Shown one piece after another: positions 43,862 to 59,229 of a stretch of 64,000 nt of DNA. The notes under the pieces were generated by a model, which saw nothing but the letters and a program-made list of their open reading frames with translations, had not been told where the DNA came from and searched no databases. Origin of the DNA: Candidatus Tectomicrobia bacterium (GTDB taxonomy: Bacteria > UBA8248). Within the stretch, counting starts at the first letter, position 1. Each line of letters opens with the position of its first letter. The stretch covers positions 62,001 to 126,000 of the forward strand of contig JACPUR010000041.1 in NCBI GenBank assembly GCA_016192135.1, read 5' to 3'. A program made the translations under genes and the position numbers.

Positions 43862-43886
43862 TGGAGCGGGAAACGGGATTTGAACC
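43862..43886 (-). repeat. att site: distal 25-bp copy of the tRNA-Gly 3' end
   Basis: Identical over 25 bases to 59155-59179, the 3' end of the intact tRNA-Gly gene, including the encoded CCA. Flanking bases differ on both sides. This is the far attachment site of the integrative element. The rest of the 43703-44060 gap holds the displaced terminator on one side and no gene on the other. Confidence 0.93.
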
Positions 43887-44060
43887 GTAGAGCCCGCCAA
43901 CCCAAAAACCCAAGCGGGGCGTGGTCTTTTCCTCAACTATCAACCGCTTAGGGAATGGCTTCATCCGGTCCTGTCGGTCCGCGTCGTCTCTTATCCGGCT
44001 TCATCGTGCAGAGTTGCGGCACGATAGCGGCACGGGAGCCATGCGTGGGATTGAACTGAA

Positions 44061-44540
44061 ATGCCCCGCCCGAAAATTGCCAAACAGCTTGCCAAACCTG
44101 ACCTCCCCCCTTACTCCCTCCAAGGGGTCATCTCCCTTCTACTCAAGGGCTGGACGCACCAGAAGGTCGCGGACCTTTACGGCGTCTCCAGACAGGCCAT
44201 CACGCAGAAAGTCAAGGGGCTTTGGGAACTTCTCGATCCGGAGCGCCTGGAGGCGTATGAGGCGAACCGGGCCAAGCTCCTGAGCGGCGTGGAGGCGGAC
44301 CTGCTGGAGCTTTTTGGCAACCGGTCGAAGCGCGAAAAAGCCACCCTCGGCAACGTGGCCTACGCCTTCACCCAAATCCACCAAGCCCGGCGGCTGGAGG
44401 GCGGGGAGTCCACCGCCAATTTCTCGCTCCGGGCCGTGGTGGAGGCGGTCAACCGGGAGAATATGGCGAAGAGAGAGCCAGAAAAGGCAAGGGAGGCCAC
44501 CGGCGCGGGAGAGCGGGCGCGGGACGAGGCGGGGGCCTAG
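44061..44540 (+). CDS. Phage-type helix-turn-helix protein (possible small-terminase-like)
   Basis: 159 residues. A helix-turn-helix is clear in LLKGWTHQKVADLYGVSRQAITQKVKGL. A middle YEANRAKLLSGVEADLLELF helix is followed by ATLGNVAYAFTQIHQARRLEGGES and a charged C-terminus. The form resembles small DNA-binding proteins, including terminase small subunits, of phages and their satellites, but no packaging partner is present. It is the first gene at the distal end of the element, 39 bases before the CRISPR array and on the same strand, so read-through could enter the array. Confidence 0.55.
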   Translation: MPRPKIAKQLAKPDLPPYSLQGVISLLLKGWTHQKVADLYGVSRQAITQKVKGLWELLDPERLEAYEANRAKLLSGVEADLLELFGNRSKREKATLGNVAYAFTQIHQARRLEGGESTANFSLRAVVEAVNRENMAKREPEKAREATGAGERARDEAGA

Positions 44541-44579
44541 CCCCTTCCCGGGATGCCCCGCAAGCCCATCATCCTCCAC

Positions 44580-45869
44580 ACTGTAGCTTGTCGAGAATCG
44601 CCGCTCAGGTACAATCGCCGCGCAGATCGACCGCCTCTGCAAGACACTGTAGCTTGTCGAGAATCACCGCTCAGGTACAATCAGGTCCGGTTTGGGTGTC
44701 TCATTGAGACGACTGTAGCTTGTCGAGAATCGCCGCTCAGGTACAATCTTCACCTTCGAGGATGACTTCTACCCGGGACTGTAGCTTGTCGAGAATCGCC
44801 GCTCAGGTACAATCCCACCCCTGGCGTCGGGCCTTGCGCGAGTACTGTAGCTTGTCGAGAATCGCCGCTCAGGTACAATAGGTCCTGATGCCGACTGACG
44901 AGGCCATGCACTGTAGCTTGTCGAGAATCGCCGCTCAGGTACAATCGACGCTGTGTGCACCCAATACCTCGAACCACTGTAGCTTGTCGAGAATCGCCGC
45001 TCAGGTACAATCCCGCTCCCCGATTTCCACGGCCAGGATGTACTGTAGCTTGTCGAGAATCGCCGCTCAGGTACAATAAACCTTCTGGCGGTGGCAGATA
45101 TCCAGCCACTGTAGCTTGTCGAGAATCGCCGCTCAGGTACAATGCGGGCTGTGCGCGTGATCGCTTCGCTCATACTGTAGCTTGTCGAGAATCGCCGCTC
45201 AGGTACAATCGATCCGCTGGATGGTGCGCAGGCTGGTGTACTGTAGCTTGTCGAGAATCGCCGCTCAGGTACAATCAAGGCTTGGCGTGCGAGTCGCATG
45301 GGGGAACTGTAGCTTGTCGAGAATCGCCGCTCAGGTACAATGGGGCGCCTCGTGGGCCCCCATCGCGTTCTACTGTAGCTTGTCGAGAATCGCCGCTCAG
45401 GTACAATGGCTGGCCCGGAAGATGCGCCTGGATATCAACTGTAGCTTGTCGAGAATCGCCGCTCAGGTACAATAACTGCCGCCTCGGCTACACCCTCATC
45501 AACACTGTAGCTTGTCGAGAATCGCCGCTCAGGTACAATATTTCGCGCATCCGTAAAGCAGCCGCATCGACTGTAGCTTGTCGAGAATCGCCGCTCAGGT
45601 ACAATCACCACATCTTGCGGCCCGCGTAGCAGGCGACTGTAGCTTGTCGAGAATCGCCGCTCAGGTACAATCCCCACGGGGGACGGCTCGGACACGCGTG
45701 TACTGTAGCTTGTCGAGAATCGCCGCTCAGGTACAATAGATCATCCGATGGAGTCCTTCTTCATAGGACTGTAGCTTGTCGAGAATCGCCGCTCAGGTAC
45801 AATCTAACGGCATGACTCACAACCACACCGCCTACTGTAGCTTGTCGAGAATCGCCGCTCAGGTACAAT
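44580..45869 (+). CRISPR. Type II-C CRISPR array, 20 repeats and 19 spacers
   Basis: Twenty 36-bp repeats on an exact 66-bp period, starting at 44580 + 66n, so all nineteen spacers are 30 nt. Repeats begin ACTGTAGCTTGTCGAG and end CTCAGGTACAAT. Repeat 2 has one substitution (G to A at repeat position 21, base 44666); the others look identical. The orientation is set by the tracrRNA anti-repeat and by similarity to Neisseria-type repeats, which end GCTACAAT. crRNA transcription is therefore rightward, toward cas2 and opposite to the cas operon, as is usual for type II-C. The variant repeat is at the cas-distal end, so new spacers probably enter at the cas2 side. All spacers differ. Confidence 0.98.
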
Positions 45870-45870
45870 T

Positions 45871-45903
45871 AACCCCCCGTAACCGACTGAGTTATGGGGG
45901 GTT
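45871..45903. other. 13-bp hairpin between the CRISPR array and cas2
   Basis: 45871-45883 pairs with 45891-45903 (13 pairs, one of them G-U) around a 7-base loop. It starts two bases after the last repeat and ends 15 bases before the cas2 stop codon. There is no T tract on either strand. It may block convergent read-through between array and cas operon or mark the spacer-acquisition end. Confidence 0.75.
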
Positions 45904-45918
45904 GATTCCATTTGAGGC

Positions 45919-46269
45919 CTAGAAAAGCATGAGTTGAGGGGGTGGTTCTTCGGCCCCTTTCCGCTTTTTCCCTTGGAAAACCTCCATCTTCCCGAACTGG
46001 CGGTCCGTGACGCCAAGGATCCGCACCTGCCCGCCCGGGGGGAGCGCCCCACGAACCCGCCGCCGGTAGGCGGCCGCGGCTTCCTCGCTCGCGCAGTAGC
46101 GGGCGTAGACCGAGAACTGGAGCATCGTGAACCCCTCGCCCAAGAGGGCGTTCCGGAAGCGGACGTACTCCCGCCGCGCCTCCTTGCTGTCCACGGGCAG
46201 GTCGAACATGGCGAAGAGCCAGATGGCGCGGTACTCCGAGAGATTGAGGCGCCCGCTGGGAATGGTCAC
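45919..46269 (-). CDS. cas2: CRISPR-associated endonuclease Cas2
   Basis: 116 residues with the ferredoxin-like Cas2 fold. AIWLFAMFDLPVDSKEARREY contains the conserved Asp23 at the end of the first strand, and GFTMLQFSVYARYC follows. It acts with Cas1 to integrate new spacers. The start overlaps cas1 by four bases (ATGA). Last gene of the cas9-cas1-cas2 operon; no cas4 or csn2 is present, which defines subtype II-C. Confidence 0.95.
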   Translation of the reverse strand: MTIPSGRLNLSEYRAIWLFAMFDLPVDSKEARREYVRFRNALLGEGFTMLQFSVYARYCASEEAAAAYRRRVRGALPPGGQVRILGVTDRQFGKMEVFQGKKRKGAEEPPPQLMLF

Positions 46270-47153
46270 ACCTCCGGCAGGACGAGGCTCTTCCGCTTTC
46301 CGGCGTACACGGCTGCGAGGCTCGCCGCCATGCGCGCCGCGATGTCGAAGAGGGTGCGCGACTCTCCCTCGGCTTCAAATCTCCCCGTCAGTGCCCCGAT
46401 GAGCGCCTTCTTGGCCTCCTTGTCGAGGGGCGCGTCTGCCCCTTCTTCCTCGCAGTTGCGCGCGACCGCCCGGTCCACGACGGGCCGGAAGGGCTCCATC
46501 AGGTCGTCGGCGAGCCGGAAGGCGTCGTAGCGGTTGTGGTGGTGGAGGCCAAAGGAGGGATGGAGACCAGCCCCGCAAATAGCCCGCGCCACGATGGCCC
46601 GGAGGACCGCATAGCCGTAGTTGAGAAACCGGTTTTGATCCTCCGCCTCCCGGTTTCTCCGGAAATCGGGATCTCCAAAGAGTTCGCGCCAATACCTCCG
46701 CGAGGCCTGAGCCTCGATGCTGGCCGCGTTGCCCGTGAGGACCCGCCCGGCCATTTGGAGGAGGCCTTCGTCGTTTCCCCGAAGCTCGGCCAGCACCTTT
46801 CCCTGAGCCCGTACTTTGGCCCGGACCAAATCCCGCCACAGGCGCTTTAGGACAGGCAGGGATACTCCCGCCTGAAGGGCGAAGCGCTCCCCCTGTGTCG
46901 AGTGGCCCTCCAGGGGGAGGAGCATGGCCGAGGGCATGTGGCGGCCGTCGCAGGCCACGAATATGCCTCCCGCCGCCGCAAGGCCGCTCAGTACCGCATG
47001 GGTGAAGGTCACGCCGGGGTTCGAGACGACCAGAGCAGCGACCTCGGCCAGAGGAATCGCGTTCTCCCCGCTCTCCAACTGGATGACCAGAAGGGAGTTC
47101 CGGACGCTTAAGCGCGCGGGCGCTTCGGATATGTCAATGACCCGCTCAATCAC
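46266..47153 (-). CDS. cas1: CRISPR-associated integrase Cas1
   Basis: About 295 residues. It begins VIERVIDISEAPARLSVRNS, the type II Cas1 N-terminus, from a GTG at 47153 that overlaps the cas9 stop by eight bases. An in-frame start at 47189 deeper in cas9 is possible but adds unconserved residues. Metal-binding residues are Glu147 in SIEAQASRRYW, the HHH cluster at 204-206 (GLHPSFGLHHHNRYD) and Glu220 in LADDLMEPFRP. With Cas2 it catalyses spacer acquisition. All catalytic positions look intact, so adaptation should be functional. Confidence 0.94.
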   Translation of the reverse strand: MIERVIDISEAPARLSVRNSLLVIQLESGENAIPLAEVAALVVSNPGVTFTHAVLSGLAAAGGIFVACDGRHMPSAMLLPLEGHSTQGERFALQAGVSLPVLKRLWRDLVRAKVRAQGKVLAELRGNDEGLLQMAGRVLTGNAASIEAQASRRYWRELFGDPDFRRNREAEDQNRFLNYGYAVLRAIVARAICGAGLHPSFGLHHHNRYDAFRLADDLMEPFRPVVDRAVARNCEEEGADAPLDKEAKKALIGALTGRFEAEGESRTLFDIAARMAASLAAVYAGKRKSLVLPEV

Positions 47154-50100
47154 TGGCCAGGCGCACCTCGCCCAAGGGTGTGACAACAACTTTTCTGCAA
47201 TTCATCTCCCGCAATTTATCTATCGGCGCTTCTTTCCGGTCGCCCGCTTTTTTAATGTCGGACACTTTCCGGGCGTCGTTGGTCCGCTGGTATTCGATTG
47301 TCTTCCGCCCATCTTTTCGATGAACGACTGTTTTGACGAGATACAGCCACATTGAACCATCACCATCTGTCAGCTGAATGGTCTCGCCAGGAGCCAGGGA
47401 GAACTTAAACTCACTCCCATCTCCACGGTCTTTCTTTACGATCGCTCCCCATACTGAGAACGACTTCCCACGCCCTCGCCTTAGCCCACTTCCATCCCCA
47501 CGAGCATTCCTGACAACTGCTCCTTCCGGGAGAGGCACCCCCTCCCGGAACCTGCGTATGGTCTCTTCTAGCCGCCGCATGGCTTCGTAGGTACTGACGA
47601 CCTCGCCCTCCCATCTCGGAAGCCCTTGGCCGTCCTGCGTCTCAAAAATTGCAACGTAATGGTTGGAACCCGGCATAACGTGGCGGGTCTCGTCCACCTG
47701 CATCACCCGTTCATACTTGCGGATGCGAACCTTGTGGATTGGGATCTCCCGGCCGTCCTTCGCCTTCAGGCAGGGATGATCCTTCGGATCCTTGAAGACT
47801 TTCTTCGGCTCCTCCCCGTTCAGCCTTTCCTTGACGATTCGCTTGATGGTCCGGTCCTGGATGTTCTCGACCTCGGAAGCGGAGAGGGCGCCAAGAGGCT
47901 TCCGGACGAGCGCGTATACCTTGCCTTTCTCATCCGTGCGCGGTCTGCTGTGGATGGTTGCGTTGTGGAGCGCCCCGCGCACCTTGCAGGAAACCCGGTG
48001 GGAGACCTTCAGGCACGCGATAACGCGCCGTACATCATCGAGGAATCCGGACCAGGGCGGCTCCACTTTTCCGAAGAGCCTCCGGCGCTCCCGGGTGGCC
48101 CGCTTCGCCGCGTCGCTGAGCGCCTTGACCGCCGCCGGGGTCGTGAGGGCGATGGCGACAGCGTCAACCGCGTGGTGGCGGTGATCCTCGCGTGATTTCT
48201 GCGGCCCGCCGTTGAGGATGCGGTTCAGCCCCCACTCGCCCCGCAGGAAATGGGTCACCTGGCCCCGTGTAGCCTGGACGCGGATTTTGCCCTCCGGATC
48301 GGCCCCATGTTCGTTCGCTCCATATAGGAGGCCCAGATACCTCCTCGCCAACCTCGCGGCGTAGCGCGTGTCGTTGAGCTGGCGGGCCGTGAAGTCTTCG
48401 ATGCTCTCCAGGTCCTTGAGTTGGAAGCGCTCCAGCTTGACGCGGGCGGCGTCTCCCTTGAACTGCTTGACGCGCTGGATGATTTCTTCCCATTCAGATG
48501 TACCGCCATAGGCTTCCCAGGGCGTCTGGTTCCGCTTCCGGTTGCGGTTCTCCTCGTGGTGGCAGAGGGTCTTGTTCATGAAGGAATTGTCGAGGGAGCG
48601 GTCGAGGGGGATGATGTGCTCCACGTCGAACTGGGGGCTCGGCCCGATGAGTGAGGCAGCGTTGATTGTCCGGTTGGTGTACGGGCACTTCCAGCCGCAT
48701 TCCTCGGCGAGGAGCCATTTCTCAATGTCATGACCCCGGGGCTCTGCCCCGGTCTCCTTGATAATTTTTTGAGCCTTGATAATTTTTTGAGCGGCATCTT
48801 CTCGCCTGAGGCGGTTTTCATAGTTGCGCCTTGAGATCGCCTTGCGGTCCTCGCGCGACTTCTTGAGATCGCGGGCCAGCTCGACCCGGACGAGGCTGGG
48901 CTTGCCGTATTCGCGCACGATGGCGTTGACGATCTTCCGCACTTCCGTGAGGGTCCGCTGGACGGCCGGGTTGCGGACCTCCAGCGCGTCCGCCAGGGGA
49001 GGCAGCGACTCCTCCGGCTCCGGGAGAGACAGGTCCCCATAGACCTGCTTCCGCGCCGTAGCGTAGGGGACGCCCCCTTCTATGAGGGGGAGGAGCCTGT
49101 TCACCGCATCGAGCGACAAGGAGAGGTGGCCCTCTTCCAATCCAATCTCGCCGAATTTCTTCGCCGCCTCCTCATCGAGCCCCCACTTGTCCCTTCCGAG
49201 TTTCCGGAGCGTCTCCTCCCTCCGGATGCTTCGGACGTACCAGACGATCCGATCCTTCTCCTCCGAGGAAAACCCTGCCCACCGTTCTTGGCCGAACACC
49301 TCGATGAGCTTGGCCGCCGTGCGGTTCCCGGCGAGCTTCTTCTCGGCCTCGGTCTCGAAGTTGAATCGGTGGCCCTTGAGCTTGAGGAGGGTACGAATTT
49401 TAGGGAATGTGAGATCCCCTTGAGACTCAAGAGCATCCAGTAGCTTTGTGCGCTCCTCGGGCTCCAGATTCCGGATTTCCCCATCCGGCGTGATCACTTT
49501 CAGGTCGTTCACCTTCTGGAGGAGGCGGAAACGTTGGGCGGGAAGGAGGGCGAGGGGGGCGCGCTTTTGGCCCGGCTCCAATTCGCACTCGCCGATCAGG
49601 TGCTTCGCGCTCTTGAGAGGCCGCTGGCGGAAGATGGCCCGGTGGACCTTTCGTTTGAGTTCCTCGGCCAGGGCGCCTGGATGGTAGGGAACCTGAGCGG
49701 CCCATATTTTCTCGAACTCCCCCTGATACATCTCCCTTGCCGTCCAGCGGGCGCGGATGCGCTCCTCCTCGGGGTCGAGGCGGGAGAAGTATTCGCCGAG
49801 CGTGCGCGTCCCTGAATTTTCGATGTTCTGCGCCAGTTCGCCGATCTTCTTCTTGACCTCGCCCTTCTTCTTCTTGACCTCGCCCTGATCTCCTTTTCCC
49901 TTCTCGGCTTTCCTGAGAGCCCTCCGGTTCGAAAGGAAGCCGCGCCGGTGGGCCAAGTGGTAGATGGCACGGCCCAGTTCGAAGGGTTCGAGCTTTTCAT
50001 CAAGGGCCCGTGCTCGGAGGCGGTAGGGGAGGACGTGGGGATGGGCCTTTCTCTCCTCGTCGGAAAAGAGGCCCCGGTCGAGCGCCTTGAAGAACGCATC

Positions 50101-50415
50101 CCGGGCCTCGGGCAAACTCAAATCGCCCGGCGGCAGGAGGCCGACCTCCTGAAGGATGAGGGCGAGGCCCTTGAGGCGGCGGGCGCGGCGGGCGAGCATC
50201 CGCCTCCGAAGGCGGGCCTCGCGGCGATCCTTGGCCCGCGATTCATCCCCTCCCGACTCGATGTCCCCCTCCACCCCGGCGGGGTAGACGCGCACCCCCG
50301 CGCGGAGGAAGCCTACTGGCTTGGCATTTCCAAGCTTGATGAGGGCCCAGCCGACCGAGTTGGCGCCGATGTCGAGGCCAAGGAGAGTTTCTGGAGCGGG
50401 CGTGGGCGGGTTCAT
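47146..50415 (-). CDS. cas9: CRISPR-associated endonuclease Cas9, type II-C
   Basis: 1089 residues, typical of compact II-C enzymes. RuvC-I GLDIGANSVGWAL with Asp15; arginine-rich bridge helix about 60-82; RuvC-II RVELARDLKKS with Glu512; HNH domain about 573-625 with DVEHIIPLDRS, His600 as general base and nearby Asn residues; RuvC-III HHAVDAVAIAL with Asp751. The C-terminal 300 residues form the WED/PAM-interacting part and cannot be assigned a PAM by eye. All nuclease residues are intact, so double-strand cutting is expected. Two in-frame tandem duplications occur (residues about 178-192 and 542-553). First gene of the cas operon, with GAGGAGAGG before the ATG. Confidence 0.97.
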   Translation of the reverse strand: MNPPTPAPETLLGLDIGANSVGWALIKLGNAKPVGFLRAGVRVYPAGVEGDIESGGDESRAKDRREARLRRRMLARRARRLKGLALILQEVGLLPPGDLSLPEARDAFFKALDRGLFSDEERKAHPHVLPYRLRARALDEKLEPFELGRAIYHLAHRRGFLSNRRALRKAEKGKGDQGEVKKKKGEVKKKIGELAQNIENSGTRTLGEYFSRLDPEEERIRARWTAREMYQGEFEKIWAAQVPYHPGALAEELKRKVHRAIFRQRPLKSAKHLIGECELEPGQKRAPLALLPAQRFRLLQKVNDLKVITPDGEIRNLEPEERTKLLDALESQGDLTFPKIRTLLKLKGHRFNFETEAEKKLAGNRTAAKLIEVFGQERWAGFSSEEKDRIVWYVRSIRREETLRKLGRDKWGLDEEAAKKFGEIGLEEGHLSLSLDAVNRLLPLIEGGVPYATARKQVYGDLSLPEPEESLPPLADALEVRNPAVQRTLTEVRKIVNAIVREYGKPSLVRVELARDLKKSREDRKAISRRNYENRLRREDAAQKIIKAQKIIKETGAEPRGHDIEKWLLAEECGWKCPYTNRTINAASLIGPSPQFDVEHIIPLDRSLDNSFMNKTLCHHEENRNRKRNQTPWEAYGGTSEWEEIIQRVKQFKGDAARVKLERFQLKDLESIEDFTARQLNDTRYAARLARRYLGLLYGANEHGADPEGKIRVQATRGQVTHFLRGEWGLNRILNGGPQKSREDHRHHAVDAVAIALTTPAAVKALSDAAKRATRERRRLFGKVEPPWSGFLDDVRRVIACLKVSHRVSCKVRGALHNATIHSRPRTDEKGKVYALVRKPLGALSASEVENIQDRTIKRIVKERLNGEEPKKVFKDPKDHPCLKAKDGREIPIHKVRIRKYERVMQVDETRHVMPGSNHYVAIFETQDGQGLPRWEGEVVSTYEAMRRLEETIRRFREGVPLPEGAVVRNARGDGSGLRRGRGKSFSVWGAIVKKDRGDGSEFKFSLAPGETIQLTDGDGSMWLYLVKTVVHRKDGRKTIEYQRTNDARKVSDIKKAGDRKEAPIDKLREMNCRKVVVTPLGEVRLASD

Positions 50416-50428
50416 CTCGCCTCTCCTC

Positions 50429-50456
50429 TTGACAAAATTTTCTGGAAGGATATTAT
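50429..50456 (+). promoter_or_regulatory. Promoter of the tracrRNA gene
   Basis: TTGACA at 50429-50434, 16 bases, then TATTAT at 50451-50456. Predicted start is about 50463, two bases before the anti-repeat. The promoter overlaps the cas9 leader region on the other strand, so tracrRNA and cas9 are divergent and share this 50-base segment. Confidence 0.85.
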
Positions 50457-50462
50457 TTCATG

Positions 50463-50570
50463 TGATTGTACCTGAGCGGCGATTGCTTGCAAGTTACAGC
50501 AAGGGCTTTCGTCCGCCGGGCTCTGCCCCGCGAGGGGCACCCCGAGGCGCCTCCTGAGGCGCCTTTTTTT
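50463..50570 (+). ncRNA. tracrRNA
   Basis: The anti-repeat at 50465-50500 is complementary to the CRISPR repeat at 29 of 36 positions plus G-U pairs: 20 contiguous pairs, a five-base internal bulge (GCTTG against the repeat's processed side), then CAAG and TACAG. After it come a nexus-like GGGCTTTCGTCCGCC, a hairpin GCTCTGCCCC-GCGA-GGGGCA strikingly like the Neisseria tracrRNA core, and a terminator hairpin at 50545-50564 (9-bp arms AGGCGCCTC/GAGGCGCCT) with seven T residues ending at 50570. Length about 108 nt. It pairs with pre-crRNA, directs RNase III processing and loads Cas9. Confidence 0.95.
50465..50492 (-). promoter_or_regulatory. Candidate cas9 promoter inside the anti-repeat
   Basis: On the minus strand, TTGCAA (50492-50487), 16 bases, then TACAAT (50470-50465). 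The geometry is identical to that in each array repeat (TTGTCG, 16 bases, TACAAT). The start would fall near 50458, giving a leader of about 43 nt before the cas9 ATG at 50415. Sequence-based suggestion only. Confidence 0.55.
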
Positions 50571-50626
50571 GCTCGTATTCCCCCAGTCCGGAGAAAAGAA
50601 ATTCTTCGTCCGCAGTGGCCTGTCAC

Positions 50627-51586
50627 CTACAGCAATCCCTCCCCCGCGTGGCCCTTGAAGGCGTCCGCCCGGCGGACGTAGGCCCGGACGGTCTGGACGC
50701 TCCGGTGGCGGGACACGTCCATGATGGCCCATACGTCCTTCCCCGCCTCGGCCGCCGCCGTGACGAAACCCGCGCGGAGGGAGTGCCCGCCGAAGTCCTC
50801 CGCCCGGAGGCCCGCCCGCTCCGCGTACCGCTTGACCGCCTTCCCGATGCTGTGGCCGCTCAAGGCCCCGGCCTGGACCTTGCCCCCCTTCCCCAGGCGC
50901 CGGAACACGGGGCCGCTCGCGATGCCCGCCCCGGCCAGCCAAGCCCGAAGCGCCCCGACCGGGCAGAAGAACCTCCCGCGCACGATGGGGACGCCCCGCC
51001 CCTGGCCCTCTTGGTCCGTCTTGGAGCGCCGAAGGTGGACCCAAAGGTTCCCGTCCTCCCGGAATTCCACGTCCCCGGCCTCAAGGCCCGCAAGCTCGGA
51101 GCGCCGGAAGGCCCCCGCGAAGCCCAGGAGCAAGAGCGCCCGGTCCCGGAGGCCCCGGAGGGTACTTGTATCGCACAGCCGGACCAACTCCCGGATCACG
51201 TCCGCATCGGCGGCCCGCTTCTGGCGGGGCGCGGCTCCCTTCTCCCGGCGGATGCCCTTCAAGGTGGTCCGCACGGCTTCATCCCGGGTGGGGGACTCCA
51301 AGCCCGCCGCTCGATGAGCCAGGGCGATGGCCGCCAAGCGGCGCTCGATGGTGGACACTTTCCGGCCCCGCTCCGCCTCGTGCGCCAGGAAGGCGCAGAC
51401 GGCCCCGGGGGAGGCCGGGAGGGGGGAGAGGCCCCGGGCCTCGGCCCAGGCCGCGAACGCGCGCCAGTCCGCCCGGTAGGCCCGCTTCGTGGACTCCGCG
51501 CGGGAGGCCTCCGCGTACCGCCGGGAGGACTCGGCATCGGCAAGCGCCAGGGCCTCGCCGGTTTCCACTTTCTGCAAGCCGTCCAT
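50627..51586 (-). CDS. Tyrosine recombinase/integrase (XerC/D-like)
   Basis: 319 residues. The N-terminal SAM-like core-binding domain spans about 20-110. Catalytic residues Arg161 (FAGAFRRSELAGL), Lys188 (RRSKTDQEG), His268 and Arg271 (GGHSLRAGFVT), His294 (SRHRSVQTV) and Tyr303 (RAYVRR) are all present. It lacks the Arg/Lys-rich arm-binding N-terminus of the integrase at the tRNA end, so it is closer to Xer-type resolvases or cassette integrases. It lies between the tracrRNA gene and ardC. It could resolve element dimers or have moved the CRISPR segment. Confidence 0.92.
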   Translation of the reverse strand: MDGLQKVETGEALALADAESSRRYAEASRAESTKRAYRADWRAFAAWAEARGLSPLPASPGAVCAFLAHEAERGRKVSTIERRLAAIALAHRAAGLESPTRDEAVRTTLKGIRREKGAAPRQKRAADADVIRELVRLCDTSTLRGLRDRALLLLGFAGAFRRSELAGLEAGDVEFREDGNLWVHLRRSKTDQEGQGRGVPIVRGRFFCPVGALRAWLAGAGIASGPVFRRLGKGGKVQAGALSGHSIGKAVKRYAERAGLRAEDFGGHSLRAGFVTAAAEAGKDVWAIMDVSRHRSVQTVRAYVRRADAFKGHAGEGLL

Positions 51587-51602
51587 CTTTCATCCCTCCC
51601 AT

Positions 51603-51629
51603 GCCCGGCCCCTCCGATGGGGGCCGGGC
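51603..51629 (-). terminator. Hairpin downstream of the ardC-like gene
   Basis: 10-bp perfect stem (51603-51612 with 51620-51629), 7-base loop, no T tract. It lies between the ardC-like gene and the recombinase gene on the same strand and may attenuate read-through. The rest of the 51587-51738 gap holds nothing recognisable. Confidence 0.45.
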
Positions 51630-51738
51630 GCGATGCCCCGCGTCCGGGGCGCCGACTCTGACCGCCGTTCAGCGCCGGGGTTTTACCCCCGTCCGGTTGC
51701 CGATGGCCCGGGTCCCGGTCGGCCTTTCGATGGTGGAA

Positions 51739-52605
51739 CTAGGCCGCTACCGCCTCCGCCGCCGCGAGGATTTCCCCGAGGATCGCCCGAATCCGCTTCA
51801 TGGCCCGGAAGATGGTGGGGACCACCGCCTTCTTGCCCCCGGCGTACTTCGCGATGTAGTCATAGGCCCGCCCCTCGTTCCCCAGCTGGACCCCGTACAG
51901 GCGCGAAAGGACCGCCGCCGCCATTTCCGCCGCTACCTCTTGATCGACGTGCTGGCCGGGCGTGAGGCGGCCCCGGAGCCGGGCGTCCGCCGCGTGGGCC
52001 AGTTCGTGGAAGAAAACGTCCTCATCTTGGGTCGCCAGCCGGATCTCCCGGCCGTCCACGGTGCAGGAACCCGCCGCGCCTTCCATGCAACCCAGGTAGG
52101 AAACCCGTACCCCCCAGGCTTCCGCGACTTCGGCCAGGGGAGGCGCAACGGGGGGCAGATAGGCGAGCGGTTCGCCTTCGGTATCCTCTAGACGGAACAC
52201 AGGGGCGGCGAAGAAGCGCCCCGCGAAGGCCTCCCGGTACTCCGCCGGTCCGGTTTCGATGAACTCGGCGTCATCGGCGGGGAAGCCGTCCGGGCCATCG
52301 TGGGAAAAATGCCCGCCGCTCTTGACCGGCACCTTCACCATGCGGGGGGCCAGGATGTGGAAGGCCTTGGCCCCTTTCTTGACGTGCCGCCCGGCCGCCT
52401 TCCATTGCCGGAAGCCCCGGGCGTCCTCCGTTCCCGCCAGGGCGCAGAGGATTTGATTGCAGAGGGACCACTTGGCGGAGGGGATGCCGGGGTCTTTGAT
52501 GAGGGTCCGGGCCAGGATGGCCGGGACCTCGCCCCGGGCGAACGCTGCGACGATTCCATTCAGGGCATCTTGCGCGTGAAGCTGAGACTTACTAGGCTGG
52601 GCCAT
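51739..52605 (-). CDS. ArdC-like antirestriction protein
   Basis: 288 residues. The N-terminal ArdC-type ssDNA-binding domain (about 8-110) has WSLCNQILCALAGTEDARGFRQW and VKKGAKAFHILAP. The C-terminal domain is a zincin with HELAH (200-204) and a downstream acidic DQEVAAEMAA that supplies the third ligand. ArdC proteins bind single-stranded DNA and protect incoming plasmids from restriction. Here it would defend the element on entering a host. The start at 52605 is chosen for GGAGG eight bases upstream; the frame is open to 52728 without family similarity. Confidence 0.85.
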   Translation of the reverse strand: MAQPSKSQLHAQDALNGIVAAFARGEVPAILARTLIKDPGIPSAKWSLCNQILCALAGTEDARGFRQWKAAGRHVKKGAKAFHILAPRMVKVPVKSGGHFSHDGPDGFPADDAEFIETGPAEYREAFAGRFFAAPVFRLEDTEGEPLAYLPPVAPPLAEVAEAWGVRVSYLGCMEGAAGSCTVDGREIRLATQDEDVFFHELAHAADARLRGRLTPGQHVDQEVAAEMAAAVLSRLYGVQLGNEGRAYDYIAKYAGGKKAVVPTIFRAMKRIRAILGEILAAAEAVAA

Positions 52606-52715
52606 TCTCGTTTCCCTCCTACCAGGGATTCGGGATAGGGCCTCTTTGGGGTTGGCGCCCCTCTGAGGCCCGCTTTTTTGGTTGCGGGAAGCAGGGATTA
52701 TCGCAACCAAAAATG

Positions 52716-52744
52716 AATCTAGGGCCATGCAATCATTTTGTCAA
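52716..52744 (-). promoter_or_regulatory. Candidate promoter of the ardC-like gene
   Basis: On the minus strand, TTGACA (52744-52739), 17 bases, TAGATT (52721-52716), in an AT-rich gap between divergent genes. It gives an untranslated leader of about 100 nt. Confidence 0.5.
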
Positions 52745-52788
52745 TCGAAAATATGGACATGCTATCAAAAAGTCTGTAGAGTGCTTTT

Positions 52789-53001
52789 ATGAATGCGCGC
52801 GGCGGGGCCAGGGAAGGGGCGGGGCGGAAGCCCAAGGGGCCGGAAAAACTCTCCAGCTTGCTCAAGGTGCTGATGGCCCCAAGTGACCGGGAGCGGCTGG
52901 AGAAGGCCGCCCGAAGCCGGGGCATCGGCGCAAGTGAACTCGCCCGCGCCTACATCCTCCGAGGGCTGGCCGGGGAGGAGAAGCGGAAGGGGAAGGGATA
53001 G
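52789..53001 (+). CDS. Small ribbon-helix-helix-like DNA-binding protein
   Basis: 70 residues. The N-terminus GGAREGAGRKPKGPEK is a basic motif frequent in small phage and plasmid proteins. The rest (LMAPSDRERLEKAARSRGIGASELARAYILRGL) fits an RHH-type strand-helix-helix. A likely transcriptional regulator of the element, divergent from ardC with the AT-rich intergenic region as probable operator. Possibly also a mobilisation accessory factor. Confidence 0.65.
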   Translation: MNARGGAREGAGRKPKGPEKLSSLLKVLMAPSDRERLEKAARSRGIGASELARAYILRGLAGEEKRKGKG

Positions 53002-53726
53002 GCGGCCCTGCCCTTCACCAAAGGGCATCCCCCAAAGCGCGCGCGCTTTCCTGGCGGGACTTTGGCCCGCACCCCTGCCCTCCCCCCCCGAGGGGCATGG
53101 GTCCAGGGCACCCCCCTCGCGAATGCTCTATCCCGTTTTTACCGGCGCGCCGTATAAAAGCGGCTTCAGGGCCTGCCAGGGGCGGTTATTGACGAAACGG
53201 AAAAGGGAGCCGGGTGATAGGAGAACGGAGAATGGAACCCGTTGCCCGCTCACTCTTGCTTGATATTGTCGCAAAGAATTACATTAACGGTGACACATAG
53301 ACCCGTTGGCCGCTCTCCCGCCCCCAAAAAAGACACCCCTGCCACAAACCATGAGCGAGGAGTTAGTTAGCGATAAGTCCCCTTCCCGCAAGCGATATAC
53401 TCCGGCCGGTCTGGCTATGCCGGAAGGCCAGGAGCGGGCCGATATCATCCCCCGGGGGCCTTGGCACACCCCCCGCCGGGGGCAATCGCGTAGGGGTCCC
53501 AACGTTTCACTTTAGGGGCAAATGCTTCCGCCGAATTGCCAGAGGGGCCAGGGGCAGCGAAATACGGTCCCTTCGCCAGCGGCCGGACATCAATGGGCGC
53601 CGATTTTTTGATGAGGGCTGGTTTTAGCGATATCGCTTCCGGCCGGGGCTAGGCTTCGCACTCCAAGATCCGCTCTCCCGAGCGGCCTGCCCCGCGCCTG
53701 ATTCTCGGGTGCCCCACGGAGGGGCT
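53002..53726. other. 725-base gap with related short motifs and no firm gene
   Basis: Two similar words, AGCGATATACTCCGGCCGG (53391) and AGCGATATCGCTTCCGGCCGG with a perfect 12-bp palindrome (53626-53637), lie about 235 bases apart. An unsupported open frame of 55 codons runs 53351-53515 and a 22-codon frame with a plausible ribosome site runs 53232-53300. I cannot assign either. Could be a control or replication region of the element. Confidence 0.35.
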
Positions 53727-54398
53727 ATGAATCCAATCTCTCAAGGCGACAATCCGGACGAACGAACGGGCGCACGTTACGACCCTTCGGATTGGACCCC
53801 TTCTAGAATCTACGACTACATATGCCGGTGCGAACGGAGGGAGCATGGCACTGTGTTGCTGTCCGAGGAAAAATATCAGGGTTGGCTGAAAGAATATGCC
53901 AGCCGAGCCGTTCAGGCTGGAATTAATCGTTTCTTACGTGCGGCCACTGCCCGGCCCTCAAAAACCCGTCGTTATGCGCGGTCGAGCCGCAAGAGCCTCT
54001 ATGACCGCGTCGGCGGCAGTCCGTGGGATCGCCCGCAAAGACTCCATCGCATGATTGCCGAGCACGAATTTCCGTGGGTTGTCCTGAAAGGTGAGTTCGA
54101 TACCATTATGGACAAGAATCTTAACAGAGAAGCGGCAATCACAATTCTACGGGAGCGATATCACTACCTCCCTCACGTGAGGAGAGAGAGGTTTCCAATG
54201 GACCTTTTGGAAAATCCTTCAACATTGGCGTATGCAGAAATTATCGAAGACCTAGAATTAGGAATTGAGCCAGAGTCTTTGCCATCTCTTCTTTCGAGGG
54301 CTCCTGTTCCTGATGAAATTAGACAGTGGGTCCAGCCTCGCACCCGCAAACTTTCTCCCACCATCAAAGGCACCCGGTCCAGGAAGCTTAGAAAGTAA
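53727..54398 (+). CDS. Hypothetical protein of the integrative element
   Basis: About 223 residues, not recognised. It is basic at both ends (the C-terminus ends in TRSRKLRK), has no membrane segment, and has a central LREDYHYLP-like helical part (EAAITILRERYHYLPHVRRE). Base composition is clearly lower in GC than the neighbours. The ATG at 53727 follows GGAGGGG. Its place between the regulator gene and the replication operon suggests an element-specific accessory function, perhaps DNA-binding. Confidence 0.6.
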   Translation: MNPISQGDNPDERTGARYDPSDWTPSRIYDYICRCERREHGTVLLSEEKYQGWLKEYASRAVQAGINRFLRAATARPSKTRRYARSSRKSLYDRVGGSPWDRPQRLHRMIAEHEFPWVVLKGEFDTIMDKNLNREAAITILRERYHYLPHVRRERFPMDLLENPSTLAYAEIIEDLELGIEPESLPSLLSRAPVPDEIRQWVQPRTRKLSPTIKGTRSRKLRK

Positions 54399-55115
54399 AT
54401 TCATCCCACTCACTCCTGCAATCCTTTGTTTTTATTCTTGATTAGGCACCGATTTCAGTTTTGGCGTCCCCTCGCCCCGAATCATTACATTGCATCCCGA
54501 CGGCGGGAGCGCATCGACGCCCTCCCGCACCAAAACCCCTGCCCCCGCCTCCTGCCCGGGAAAGCGACCGAAGGGTGCCAATAATAGTTCCCGTTCTAGA
54601 CCAAGGCCCTGGGAAATCCCCCCGTCCTATAACGCTGAGCCCGTCCCCCGCCTTCGGCCCCAGGGGGGACGGGTCAGAGGGGGAGCGAGTCGTGAGCGTG
54701 ATTCACTGCTCTGGACAGGAAGTCCGCAGTAGCTTGAACCAGATTCTTGTTGACATTTTGAAAAGCGCTTCCCTATATATGGGGAGAATACCGAAGCGGT
54801 TGAACCCAGCCGCGGAGACTTCGGTATCGCGGGGCCGGACTCCCGCGCGGGTAGCGGGTCCCAAAAACCCGGAATCACCCGGCGAGGGGGCAGCAACACG
54901 CGTCACTCCCCCCTCAAAACAAAAGCCGAACGGCGCGCTCATGACGAGAGCGGGTAGCCCTACGGGGCGGCCCCTTCGTTTTGGGCGCGCTTTTTTTGTT
55001 GTCCGAGGAGGAAGTTCCGCTCCGCCCGGGAGGCGCGAAGGGTGGTAACCGCGACTGAGATTTCCCGCAAGGGAACAGGAGACCTTCCGCCCCAGGGCGA
55101 GGAGGGCTCCAGTCA
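54399..55115. other. 717-base gap with a strong promoter and structured region
   Basis: TTGACA (54750-54755), 18 bases, TATATA (54774-54779) is a good promoter pointing right. Downstream an ACCGAAG...CTTCGGT inverted repeat (54790-54825) and a GC-rich region ending GGGCGCGC and seven T residues (54983-54998) could form a small RNA of about 220 nt, or a leader of the replication operon that starts at 55116. No convincing coding sequence. Confidence 0.45.
54750..54779 (+). promoter_or_regulatory. Promoter ahead of the replication/integration operon
   Basis: TTGACA, 18-base spacer, TATATA. It is the best sigma70-like match in the right half of the element. Its transcript would start near 54786, 330 bases before the first gene. 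Confidence 0.6.
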
Positions 55116-57335
55116 ATGACAACGACGGCGCCCGCTCTCCGATTCCACCATCCCACCCTCGGCAAGCCAGAGATGGTCTGCCCCTTCGTCCAGCCGGACG
55201 GGACGCTCATCGGCTACGAGGTCCGATTCCCTGGCAAGCGAATCCTTCCTCTTACCCCCACGGGCGAATGGCGCGCCTTTTGGCAGCCGGACAAGCGGCC
55301 CCTTGCCAACCTGGACCGCATATCGACTGAGCCCGACAAAACGATCATTGTCTGCGAAGGTCCCAAGGCCATGTTCGCGGCGCAGAGGCTTTTCCCGGGC
55401 TACATCTGCACTTGCTGGCCGGGTGGAACGAACAGCCGCGCCCAGGTGGACTTTGGCCCACTTTACAGGCGTCGGGTGATCTATTGGCCCGACGCAGACG
55501 GGCCGGGCATCGAGTGCATGAATGAAATCTACATGGAACACGCCCCCTTTTGCGAAAGGAGCTTCGTGCTGCCACCCGCTGACGCTCCGAAGGGATGGGA
55601 CGCGGCAGACCTGGAAGCTGAAAAACCTCCCGATCCCAACGCCTGGCTCAAGACCGCGTTGAAACTGCATGACGAATGGCGGGCCGCTGTTGATCCCATC
55701 ATGACCGCCTACCGAATGGAGCTTGAAACAAAGAGGGCGACGGTCCGGGAGAAGCGCCCGGCCCGGAACGGGTGGCCCGGGCCTCCCGCCGCCGACCCTA
55801 CCGACCCGGGGCCGGTGGACCTGGTTCCCGGCATCCCCGATGAGCCCTCCATCCTGTTTGAAGGCCCTCCTGTCCCGCTCGACGCGCCCGACCTCCCCCC
55901 TCTGTGCCCTGAGCTGTTCCCTGGCTTCCTTGGCGGAATGATCAAGGCAACGGCGCAGGCGACTGAAACGCCCCCCGAACTGGCCGGCCTTTTGGGCCTC
56001 GCCGCCGTCGCTGCCTGCGTGCAAGGCAAGGCCGTAGTCTGCCCCTCGCCCGACTATCGGGAGCCCCTGTGCCTCTACGTCGCGCCCGCCCTCGACTCGG
56101 GCAACCGGAAGACCTCGGTACTCATGGAAATGACTCGCCCCCTGCGCGAGTGGGAGCGCAAGCGCGCCGATGAAATCCAGCCCGAGGCGGACAAGGCCGC
56201 GAGTATGCGCAAGACGCTGGAGGCTCGCGCGGATTATCTGCGGAAGCAGGCGGCGAAAGCCGAGAGCCTGGAACTTGAAAACCTCACGGTCGAGATCGAG
56301 GAGGTGGAGCGCAAGATACCCGAGATTCCCGTCCTGCCCCGCCTCTGGGCACAAGACGTGACGCCCGAACGCCTGGGTGCCCTCATGGCCGAGAACCAAG
56401 AGCGGATTGCACTCATCAGCGACGAAGCCGGAATTTTTGAAATCCTGGAAGGTCGTTACAGCGGCGGAATCCCGAACCTGGATCTATTCCTGCAAGGGCA
56501 CGCCGGAGCGCCCGTCCGGGTGGACCGGGGGAGCCGCAAAGCCGTCTATCTCCAGAGCCCTTGCCTCACCCTCGCCCTCAGCCCCCAGCCCGAAGTGATT
56601 CGGGGGTTGGCGCTCAAGCCCGGCTTCCGGGGGCGGGGCCTCCTGGCCCGCTTCCTGTATGCCCTTCCACCTTCCCCTCTCGGCTGGCGAAAGCTCACCA
56701 GCAAGCCCACCCCCCAATCTGTGCGAGACGCCTACGCCCGGGGCCTCCGGGCGCTCCTGGACACCCCCTCTGTCATCGGCGAGGACGGGGAGCCCGTGCC
56801 GGTGGTTTTTGAGTTTTCTGATGATGCTTTCAGCGAGTGGCGGGAGTTCAGCGCGGCGACCGAGCGCGAACTGCGAGAGGATGGGGAGTACGCGCAGATC
56901 ACCGATTGGGCGGGGAAGCTCCCCGGCGCCGCCGCGAGAATTGCTGGCCTCCTTCACTGCGTCCAACACGCCGGGGCGGTTTCATTTCCGACCGCCATAT
57001 CCCGCGACACCGTGCAGAGCGCCCTGGAGATCGCCGCCATCCTCAGCAAACACGCCCTCGCCGCCTTCGGTCTTATGGGGGCGGACCCGGCCATCGAGGG
57101 GGCCAAACGAGTCTGGCGATGGATAAAGACAAGCCGGGTGAAGAGCTTCACGGCGCGCGAATGCTTCCAGGCGCTCAAGGGCACCTTCGGGCGGATGGGC
57201 GAACTACAGCCCGCCCTAGCCGTACTCGTGGAGCGGGCCTACATCGCCGAAGCCCCCCGAGAGAAGTGCAACGTCCCGGGGCGGCCGAGCAAAACCTACA
57301 CCGTCAACCCGGCCCTGACGGAGGAATGGGCATGA
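55116..57335 (+). CDS. Toprim/DUF3987 (YfjI-like) replication protein
   Basis: 739 residues. The N-terminal part (about 20-140) is Toprim-like: TIIVCEGPKAMFAAQRLFPG with Glu81 and VIYWPDADGPG with Asp126/Asp128. The large C-terminal part (about 265-650) matches the DUF3987/YfjI family found on phages, satellites and integrative elements (FLGGMIKATAQATETPPELA, LYVAPALDSGNRKTSVL, ALISDEAGIFEILEGRYSGG). A P-loop is not obvious. The last 80 residues look like a winged helix. It probably primes or helps replicate the excised element. First gene of a four-gene coupled operon with the integrase. Confidence 0.75.
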   Translation: MTTTAPALRFHHPTLGKPEMVCPFVQPDGTLIGYEVRFPGKRILPLTPTGEWRAFWQPDKRPLANLDRISTEPDKTIIVCEGPKAMFAAQRLFPGYICTCWPGGTNSRAQVDFGPLYRRRVIYWPDADGPGIECMNEIYMEHAPFCERSFVLPPADAPKGWDAADLEAEKPPDPNAWLKTALKLHDEWRAAVDPIMTAYRMELETKRATVREKRPARNGWPGPPAADPTDPGPVDLVPGIPDEPSILFEGPPVPLDAPDLPPLCPELFPGFLGGMIKATAQATETPPELAGLLGLAAVAACVQGKAVVCPSPDYREPLCLYVAPALDSGNRKTSVLMEMTRPLREWERKRADEIQPEADKAASMRKTLEARADYLRKQAAKAESLELENLTVEIEEVERKIPEIPVLPRLWAQDVTPERLGALMAENQERIALISDEAGIFEILEGRYSGGIPNLDLFLQGHAGAPVRVDRGSRKAVYLQSPCLTLALSPQPEVIRGLALKPGFRGRGLLARFLYALPPSPLGWRKLTSKPTPQSVRDAYARGLRALLDTPSVIGEDGEPVPVVFEFSDDAFSEWREFSAATERELREDGEYAQITDWAGKLPGAAARIAGLLHCVQHAGAVSFPTAISRDTVQSALEIAAILSKHALAAFGLMGADPAIEGAKRVWRWIKTSRVKSFTARECFQALKGTFGRMGELQPALAVLVERAYIAEAPREKCNVPGRPSKTYTVNPALTEEWA

Positions 57336-57769
57336 GCTGGCGGGACATCATCGGGACCCGCAATCGCGAAATCTCCCCTACACGCCAAAATCCTCAAAAT
57401 CCCCAAAACCCATCCGCAGACGGTGATTCTGAGGATTTTGAGGATTTTGGCCTAAAGGGGCATGTATGCGGATTCCAGCCCTCATCCGTCTCCCGCCTTT
57501 CCTGGCCGTCCGGGTTCGTCCTGGTAGTTCAGCCCTCCTGGTGGCCCGGCCCGCCCTTCTATGTCCTTCGTACGCACGAGGAAGCCGCCGACCTGGAAGG
57601 GGATGGGATCGCCCCCGGGATGATCTGGACCCTGGAGGAGGCCCGGAAACTGGCTGGATTGAAGCCGGAGGAGAAGCTGGACCTCGCCCGAGTCAAGGCG
57701 GAGTTCAACGGCCGGGTGGCCGAGGTGCAGCCCCTGGCGGCAAATGCCAAGCGGAGGCGGGCCGCATGA
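57332..57769 (+). CDS. Small protein of the integration operon, unknown function
   Basis: 145 residues. It starts MSWRDIIG from an ATG overlapping the previous stop (ATGA). The N-terminal third is Asn/Gln/Pro-rich (PTRQNPQNPQNPS); the C-terminus (TLEEARKLAGLKPEEKLDLARVKAEF) is helical. No known domain recognised. Coupled at both ends to its neighbours, so expression with the integrase is certain. Confidence 0.65.
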   Translation: MSWRDIIGTRNREISPTRQNPQNPQNPSADGDSEDFEDFGLKGHVCGFQPSSVSRLSWPSGFVLVVQPSWWPGPPFYVLRTHEEAADLEGDGIAPGMIWTLEEARKLAGLKPEEKLDLARVKAEFNGRVAEVQPLAANAKRRRAA

Positions 57770-58005
57770 ACGAAGCCCTGCCCCCCCAGGCCGATCCTCA
57801 CGGCGACCTTCCTGCCGTCCTGACCGTGGACGAACTGGCCGAATTTCTCCGTGTGGGTAGGGATACGGTATATCAGGCCATCGCAAAGGGAGAGATACCG
57901 GGCGCCTGCCGAATCGGCCGCACCATCCGAATCAGCCGGGACGCCATGCTAGACTGGGTCCGAGGGAAAGGCCACGCCCCGCGCTCCGAGAGGGGAAGAA
58001 AGTGA
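57766..58005 (+). CDS. Excisionase-like helix-turn-helix protein (HTH_17/AlpA type)
   Basis: 79 residues. LTVDELAEFLRVGRDTVYQAI followed by KGEIPGACRIGRTIRISRDAMLDWV is the excisionase/MerR-type winged helix of the HTH_17 family. In this position, directly before the integrase, it likely acts as recombination directionality factor or as regulator of int. Overlaps both neighbours by four bases. Confidence 0.82.
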   Translation: MNEALPPQADPHGDLPAVLTVDELAEFLRVGRDTVYQAIAKGEIPGACRIGRTIRISRDAMLDWVRGKGHAPRSERGRK

Positions 58006-59144
58006 GCGTGAGGCGGAGGCAGTACCGCGACCCGGCGACGGGCAGGGAAAGCATTGTGTGGATGGTGGACGTGGATTTCAGGCACCCGGAGGGCCGAAGA
58101 CAGCGCATCCGCAGGGTGTCCCCCGTACAGACGAAGCGGGGGGCCGAAAGCTACGAGCGGGAATTGCGGGGAGCGTTGCTTGCGGGCCGGTACGGGAGAG
58201 AGGAGGCGCCGGAGAAAAGGGAAAGCCCGAGATTCAGCGAGTTCTCAAAGGATTTTCTTACAACATACGCGGAAGCGAACAACAAACCGAGCGAAGTAGC
58301 AGGAAAAAAAACGACACTGGAGAAACACCTTGTCCCATTCTTCGACCAGGCGAGGCTAGACGGAATCGGGAGCCGGGACGTGGAGGCATACAAGGCCCTG
58401 AAGCTGAAAGAAGGCCTCTCCCCCAAGACGGTGAACAATCACCTCGCCGTCCTCGGGAGGATGCTCCGCATCGCCCGCCGCTGGGAACTGACGGAAAGGG
58501 TGCCGGACATTGCCCCTCTCAAGCTCCCCCCGCAGGAATTCAGGTTCCTGGACTCCGAGGAGGCCGACCGGCTAATCGAGGCAACCGATCCGGATTGGAA
58601 GCCGATGATCACGCTGGCTCTCCGGACGGGCCTCCGGCTGGGGGAACTCCGGGCGCTTAAGTGGGAGGACGTGGACCTCAAGGGCGGGCGGCTCATGGTG
58701 CGCCGGGCCGCATGGCGGAACACCATCGGCACCCCGAAGAGCGGCCATGCGCGGGAGGTCCCTCTCTGCGATCAGGCAATTGCAACACTGAGAGGGCACC
58801 GGCACTTGAAAGGCGAATTCGTTTTCTGCGCCCAAGACGGGGAAATGCGCTCCATCCCATCCTGCAAGCATCCCCTCTGGCGGGCAAGGCGGAGGGCCGG
58901 GCTTCCCCACCTTGGATGGCACACCCTCCGGCACAGCTTCGCCTCTCACCTTGTGATGAAGGGGGCAACCCTGAAGGCTGTGCAGGAACTCCTGGGCCAT
59001 GCGGACATCAAGATGACGATGCGCTACGCGCATCTGAGCCCCGATGCGCGGCGGGAAGCCGTGAAACTTTTGGATGGGAACGGCACGATAGCGGCACTTC
59101 TCCCCCAAGCTGAGGGAGAAGGCCGCCAAAACCTAATGAATTAG
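58002..59144 (+). CDS. int: Tyrosine integrase of the tRNA-Gly element
   Basis: 380 residues. An N-terminal arm-binding region (8-60) precedes the SAM-like core-binding domain (75-165) and the catalytic domain. Catalytic residues Arg212 (TGLRLGELRALKW), Lys246 (GTPKSGHAR), His307 and Arg310 (WHTLRHSFASHL), His333 (LGHADIKMT) and Tyr342 (RYAHL) are intact. The GTG start overlaps the excisionase stop. The gene ends 10 bases from the tRNA-Gly 3' end, the classic position for an integrase that uses the tRNA as attachment site. Confidence 0.95.
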   Translation: MSVRRRQYRDPATGRESIVWMVDVDFRHPEGRRQRIRRVSPVQTKRGAESYERELRGALLAGRYGREEAPEKRESPRFSEFSKDFLTTYAEANNKPSEVAGKKTTLEKHLVPFFDQARLDGIGSRDVEAYKALKLKEGLSPKTVNNHLAVLGRMLRIARRWELTERVPDIAPLKLPPQEFRFLDSEEADRLIEATDPDWKPMITLALRTGLRLGELRALKWEDVDLKGGRLMVRRAAWRNTIGTPKSGHAREVPLCDQAIATLRGHRHLKGEFVFCAQDGEMRSIPSCKHPLWRARRRAGLPHLGWHTLRHSFASHLVMKGATLKAVQELLGHADIKMTMRYAHLSPDARREAVKLLDGNGTIAALLPQAEGEGRQNLMN

Positions 59145-59145
59145 G
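59128..59145 (-). terminator. Element-supplied terminator for the restored tRNA-Gly gene
   Basis: On the minus strand, 10 bases after the tRNA, CCTAATTCATTAGG forms a small hairpin followed by four T residues. It overlaps the end of int. It would replace the original terminator now at 43823-43851. Confidence 0.5.
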
Positions 59146-59154
59146 GATTTTTTC

Positions 59155-59179
59155 TGGAGCGGGAAACGGGATTTGAACC
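59155..59179 (-). repeat. att site: tRNA-proximal 25-bp direct repeat
   Basis: The 3' end of the tRNA-Gly gene including CCA, identical to 43862-43886. Together they bound the integrative element. Confidence 0.93.
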
Positions 59180-59229
59180 CGCGACCCCTGCCTTGGCAAG
59201 GCAGTGCTCTACCGCTGAGCTATTCCCGC
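59155..59229 (-). tRNA. tRNA-Gly (GCC anticodon)
   Basis: 75-nt cloverleaf on the minus strand. Acceptor GCGGGAA pairs with TTCCCGC, discriminator U and encoded CCA. The D arm holds AGCTCAGCGGTAGAGC. Anticodon stem CTGCC/GGCAG with loop TTGCCAA gives anticodon GCC. T arm GCGGG/CCCGT (one G-U) around TTTGAAT. The gene is intact because the element restored its 3' end. Confidence 0.97.

Follow-up and report, generated by a model that had tools for sequence, protein, structure and literature searches.

At positions 50463-50570 of the window, the 64,000-nucleotide stretch of Candidatus Tectomicrobia DNA analysed here, we recognise what is almost certainly the gene for the tracrRNA of a type II-C CRISPR-Cas9 system that is complete. 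The preliminary description of the locus had proposed a type II-C tracrRNA divergent from cas9, and the locus content, the pairing with the array and the same anatomy at 55 other cas9 loci bear this out. The layout is ordinary: dozens of related systems are alike, and the window supplies a further tracrRNA gene of known type.

As judged from its sequence, the locus (Table 1) is an intact type II-C system. The operon comprises cas9, cas1 and cas2 only, with csn2 and cas4 absent, and the contiguous cas genes end at the array. The best PDB matches of the Cas9 protein are Cas9 structures, to which the RuvC and HNH catalytic motifs align, the match to known structures being significant but distant. 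The array shares its direction with the tracrRNA and runs against the cas genes, the latter being usual for type II-C (PMC3936727). Each of the 20 repeats contains TTGTCG-N16-TACAAT, at the level of sequence a promoter-like element pointing into the next spacer; crRNA transcription from promoters within repeats is common in type II-C. In the working model, each crRNA would start from the promoter within the preceding repeat and pair through its repeat with the tracrRNA anti-repeat; RNase III would trim the resulting duplex, and Cas9 would hold the tracrRNA hairpins and cut DNA matching the spacer.

Table 1. Features of the CRISPR-Cas9 locus and of the surrounding element (window coordinates)
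Feature	Position	Strand	Basis
Left attachment copy, identical to the 3'-terminal 25 bp of tRNA-Gly	43862..43886	+	repeat search
CRISPR array with 20 repeats (36 bp) and 19 spacers (30 bp)	44580..45869	+	repeat count
cas2	45919..46269	-	model match
cas1, type II, NMENI model	46266..47189	-	model match
cas9, 1089 aa, RuvC and HNH motifs intact	47146..50415	-	model matches, PDB alignment
tracrRNA promoter, TTGACA (50429-50434), 16-bp spacer, TATTAT (50451-50456)	50429..50456	+	promoter scan
Predicted tracrRNA, ~108 nt	50463..50570	+	start from -10 box, end from T run
Anti-repeat	50465..50499	+	complementarity to repeats, duplex prediction
Promoter-like TTGCAA-N16-TACAAT aimed at cas9, expected start ~50458	50465..50492	-	scan; function inferred
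Stem-loop 1, GGGC-UUUC-GUCC	50503..50514	+	fold
Stem-loop 2, outer stem CGGG/CCCG, inner stem UGCCCC-GCGA-GGGGCA	50517..50544	+	fold, covariation
Intrinsic terminator, stem 50545-50552/50557-50564, then T's to 50570	about 50545..50570	+	scan and fold
Excisionase-like HTH (57466-58005) and tyrosine integrase (58002-59144), abutting tRNA	57466..59144	+	model matches
tRNA-Gly (gcc), right attachment site 59155-59179	59155..59229	-	tRNA call

Anatomy of the tracrRNA gene

The gene can be delimited from promoter to terminator. Its TTGACA-N16-TATTAT promoter, present as the preliminary description had it, agrees with the consensus in 11 of 12 bases and is the top site of a scan that returned 22 sites against 0.9 expected; these scores, like all promoter scores given here, use the sigma-70 consensus, which is assumed and may not be the preference of the host. 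All of the promoter falls in the 5' untranslated region of cas9, where the -35 element adjoins the Shine-Dalgarno sequence, and 8 bases separate the promoter from the anti-repeat. Transcription is expected to start at ~50463, about 7 bases past the -10 box and two bases before the anti-repeat, which matches the start proposed earlier. In relatives the promoter takes the same position relative to the anti-repeat. Across 27 loci, promoters placed just before the anti-repeat outscore shuffled sequences with a combined p of ~1e-13, a value that serves as a guide only, the loci being related; in several relatives the promoter is weak by the sigma-70 consensus. The terminator claimed for the other end was likewise found, a stem followed by T's ending at ~50570, which the scan placed at 50544-50570.

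The anti-repeat and the array repeat are predicted to form a duplex of 34 pairs, arranged as an upper stem of 20 bp (50465-50484), a 4-bp helix (within 50485-50489) and a lower stem of 10 bp including one G-U (50490-50499). The proposed pairing thus stands in its 20 contiguous pairs and in its distal pairs, whereas the "five-base bulge" placed between them is, in the prediction, the 4-bp helix, flanked by a single-base bulge on either side. The upper stem is the exact complement of 19 of the 20 repeats and has one mismatch to the remaining one, and shuffled sequences gave no such match. The duplex is predicted at -56.9 kcal/mol, where the mean is -22.1 (sd 4.1); among other, non-overlapping sites of the window the strongest reaches -38.4 kcal/mol. 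When the 19-mer core was searched with up to 3 mismatches through the 3.92-Mb genome (41 contigs, 97% complete), only the 20 repeats and one reverse copy, this anti-repeat, were recovered. A better anti-repeat elsewhere in the genome, named beforehand as an outcome that would speak against the gene, was therefore not encountered in the 3.92 Mb. Folded alone, the tracrRNA is predicted to pair part of the anti-repeat with the sequence that immediately follows on the 3' side, and pairing with crRNA would have to displace this structure.

The hairpin with the GGGGCA strand was found as described, at 50524-50539, and is the inner stem of stem-loop 2. Two features had been overlooked: stem-loop 1 and the pairing of 50517-50520 with 50541-50544, which makes up the outer stem of stem-loop 2. 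With GCTCTGCCCC...GGGGCA as its strands, the inner hairpin presumably resembles the Neisseria type. A long tracrRNA that carries its own guide, as tracr-L of Streptococcus pyogenes does, was also considered and rejected, since the predicted start lies at the anti-repeat. Rfam gave the tracrRNA no match up to E = 5, the sole exception being a chance riboswitch match elsewhere. The statement that such an RNA can rarely be predicted end to end by eye did not hold up: this is routine, and the tracrRNAs of Pasteurella multocida and of EHCas9 were predicted likewise from promoter, anti-repeat and terminator (PMC3936727, PMC10281378).

Related systems and conserved hairpins

Cas9 searches over about 1,070 genomes, together with one genome-contig scan, yielded many relatives; on viral contigs no Cas9 relatives were found. 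At all 56 loci examined, the window included, a tracrRNA-like anti-repeat adjoins cas9 upstream on the opposite strand, in divergent orientation. In the Cas9 tree the window falls into clade A (23 rows, support 100), which derives mostly from genomes of the phylum of a Planctomycetota record. The one long Cas9 of G016, another genome of the window's family, branches outside clade A. Since the window's Cas9 groups with clade A and that of G016 elsewhere, the tree topology suggests horizontal transfer of the system. Cas9 proteins of clade A are up to ~57% identical to that of the window. Their loci (G257, G442, G379, G255 and others of the Planctomycetota-record phylum, L003 of the Krumholzibacteriota, and G105 and G106) share the tracrRNA anatomy and have near-identical anti-repeats (AGTGTACCTGAGCGGCGATTG...); the variant in the window is set apart by a C-rich second hairpin and by its loop lengths.

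The 3' part of the tracrRNA is structured and conserved among these related systems. Stem-loop 1 stands at its place after the anti-repeat in 19 of 23 clade A relatives, against a mean of 5.8 and a maximum of 11 when the first 30 bases were shuffled. For stem-loop 2, covariation was assessed on 23 clade A tracrRNAs aligned without reference to structure (alignment A1). In the inner stem 89% of cells are paired (63% in shuffles), two-sided changes number 24 (6.4 in shuffles) and the covariation score is 0.78 (0.28 in shuffles), none of 500 shuffles being as good. The shuffle ignores kinship of the loci; the control of sliding the partner strand allows for it and destroys the signal.

Among characterized systems, those of Neisseria meningitidis and Campylobacter jejuni likewise have cas9, cas1 and cas2 only and an array opposite to the cas genes; to the promoter-like site in each repeat of the window corresponds their promoter inside each repeat, which in Campylobacter jejuni was shown experimentally to drive each crRNA separately (PMC3656092). 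They differ from the window in tracrRNA sequence, in stem-loop 1 and in the separate terminator hairpin, and the window's Cas9 matches the known structures at a distance. In the EHCas9 system of the El Hondo metagenome (PMC10281378) a ~100-bp tracrRNA gene lies upstream of cas9 and, like that of the window, has a promoter, an anti-repeat and a terminator; cas9-cas1-cas2 and an array inferred to run in the tracrRNA direction are also present. The likeness is one of layout; a mobile element and an antisense cas9 promoter are not described in the excerpts consulted. The Clostridium cellulolyticum system (PMC7038990) comes from a different host and resembles the window in having the tracrRNA upstream of the cas genes, the array opposite to them, a repeat end like an extended -10 and a tracrRNA of 70-107 nt, with promoter overlap not described in the excerpts.

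A candidate cas9 promoter opposite the anti-repeat

The strand opposite the anti-repeat carries TTGCAA-N16-TACAAT aimed at cas9, with a -10 complementary to bases one to six of the anti-repeat. The site scores 9/12, equal to the repeat promoters, with which it shares an identical run of 20 bases through the -10. Measured from the cas9 ATG, the tracrRNA -35 begins at a distance of 14 bases and the anti-repeat at one of 49 bases, so that any cas9 promoter with standard spacing and a leader able to accommodate the ribosome site must extend into the anti-repeat. On this evidence we tentatively propose, as a possibility that falls well short of probable, that the ~35-bp stretch does double duty, rightwards as anti-repeat and on the opposite strand as a cas9 promoter derived from the repeat promoter, with Cas9 and tracrRNA synthesis mutually exclusive at any moment and thereby balanced. 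From expected starts at ~50463 (tracrRNA) and ~50458 (cas9), about 5 bp apart, the two promoters would face each other; transcription of cas9 might begin from this opposite-strand site, and the two promoters might compete for RNA polymerase. The literature searched contained no description of overlapping cas9 and tracrRNA promoters.

Somewhat less likely than not is the alternative that cas9 is transcribed by read-through from the recombinase gene at 50627-51586 or from a non-consensus site. That gene has the same orientation as cas9 and lies about 210 bp upstream, and L002 and L130, relatives whose gap is longer, have a better cas9-ward promoter within it. Against this, the site opposite the anti-repeat is the sole minus-strand promoter-like site in 44400-51700, and at six clade A loci from several phyla (the window, L003, L064, L075, L127 and L129) the best cas9-ward -10 falls exactly at this place. 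In clade B the same holds for 1 of 33 loci. An antisense promoter as a trait of all relatives was rejected, for a site of at least 9/12 occurs at only 6 of 23 clade A loci (the window, L064, L075, L127, L129 and L130) and at none of the 33 in clade B. For the proposed shared promoter, moreover, the site is not separable from the pairing constraint, because its -10 and the TTG of its -35 lie in paired parts; repeat pairing by itself would preserve much of it. In the Treponema loci L005-L013 the repeats have a still stronger embedded promoter (e.g., TTGACT-N16-TATAAT), and the -10 is lost on the strand opposite the tracrRNA anti-repeat.

Activity of the locus and its mobile element

Two further readings were weighed. 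A decayed or silent tracrRNA in an inactive locus would agree with the source being a metagenome-assembled genome (MAG) and with the lack of spacer targets, for phages, plasmids and four exact-match scans of viral contigs all gave none. This reading is very unlikely, however: cas9, cas1 and cas2 are all open and motif-complete, 19 of the 20 repeats are identical, and the tracrRNA promoter, anti-repeat and terminator are all intact. Hardly credible is the reading in which the anti-repeat is no more than an isolated, inverted copy of the repeat acting as cas9 promoter, the plus-strand RNA being incidental, for although the opposite strand does hold the repeat-type promoter with its 20 identical bases, a plus-strand promoter and terminator delimit the tracrRNA unit and the hairpins 3' of the anti-repeat are conserved with covariation over 23 relatives. 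The reading as the tracrRNA gene of a complete system is retained. With no spacer target found among phages, plasmids or viral contigs, a PAM could not be derived. The repeat at 44646-44681, second from the left, has one base change (AATCACC), which suggests that the left end of the array is the older. Straight after the last repeat, at 45870-45910, lies a hairpin AACCCCCC...GGGGGGTT of about 13 pairs by eye, a possible transcription stop between the array and cas2, which converge here.

The complete CRISPR-Cas system is enclosed in a ~15.3-kb element (43862-59179), and on its sequence features we regard it as cargo of an element integrated at tRNA-Gly. The integrase lies beside the tRNA, the tRNA end is duplicated, and the site is uninterrupted in a relative, as seen in a 116-bp match. 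A DUF3987 helicase-like protein precedes the excisionase-like HTH and the integrase, and the G+C content is 63% within the element compared to 67-69% outside. Left of the left copy, in the tRNA reading direction, stand a hairpin and a T run, the arrangement predicted if the insertion has separated a terminator from its tRNA; in G002, of the same genus, tRNA-Gly runs directly into a similar hairpin, the joined flanks matching over 116 bp only, at 90%. Between the tracrRNA and the right half of the element are a second tyrosine recombinase (50627-51586, minus strand) and a protein with a weak ArdC/anti-restriction-like match (51739-52728, minus strand). The clade A stretches fetched were without a homologue of the element's integrase or of its DUF3987 protein. 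In the same-genus genome the tRNA-Gly end recurs twice more between flanks of a similar kind, at 5356-5419 and 10338-10405 of L175 (G002:C212), which suggests that tRNA-Gly is a repeated insertion site.

The window offers a ready set of crRNA, tracrRNA and Cas9 from a little-studied II-C clade, together with 23 aligned tracrRNAs. The greater interest lies in the surroundings, that is, in the hypothesis of a shared anti-repeat and cas9 promoter and in the mobile element. If the antisense promoter is real, the balance of tracrRNA and cas9 would be explained without a protein regulator, and the anti-repeat, as a former repeat, could have arisen with the promoter already present. Carriage by an element integrated at a tRNA would account for the scattered distribution of the system.
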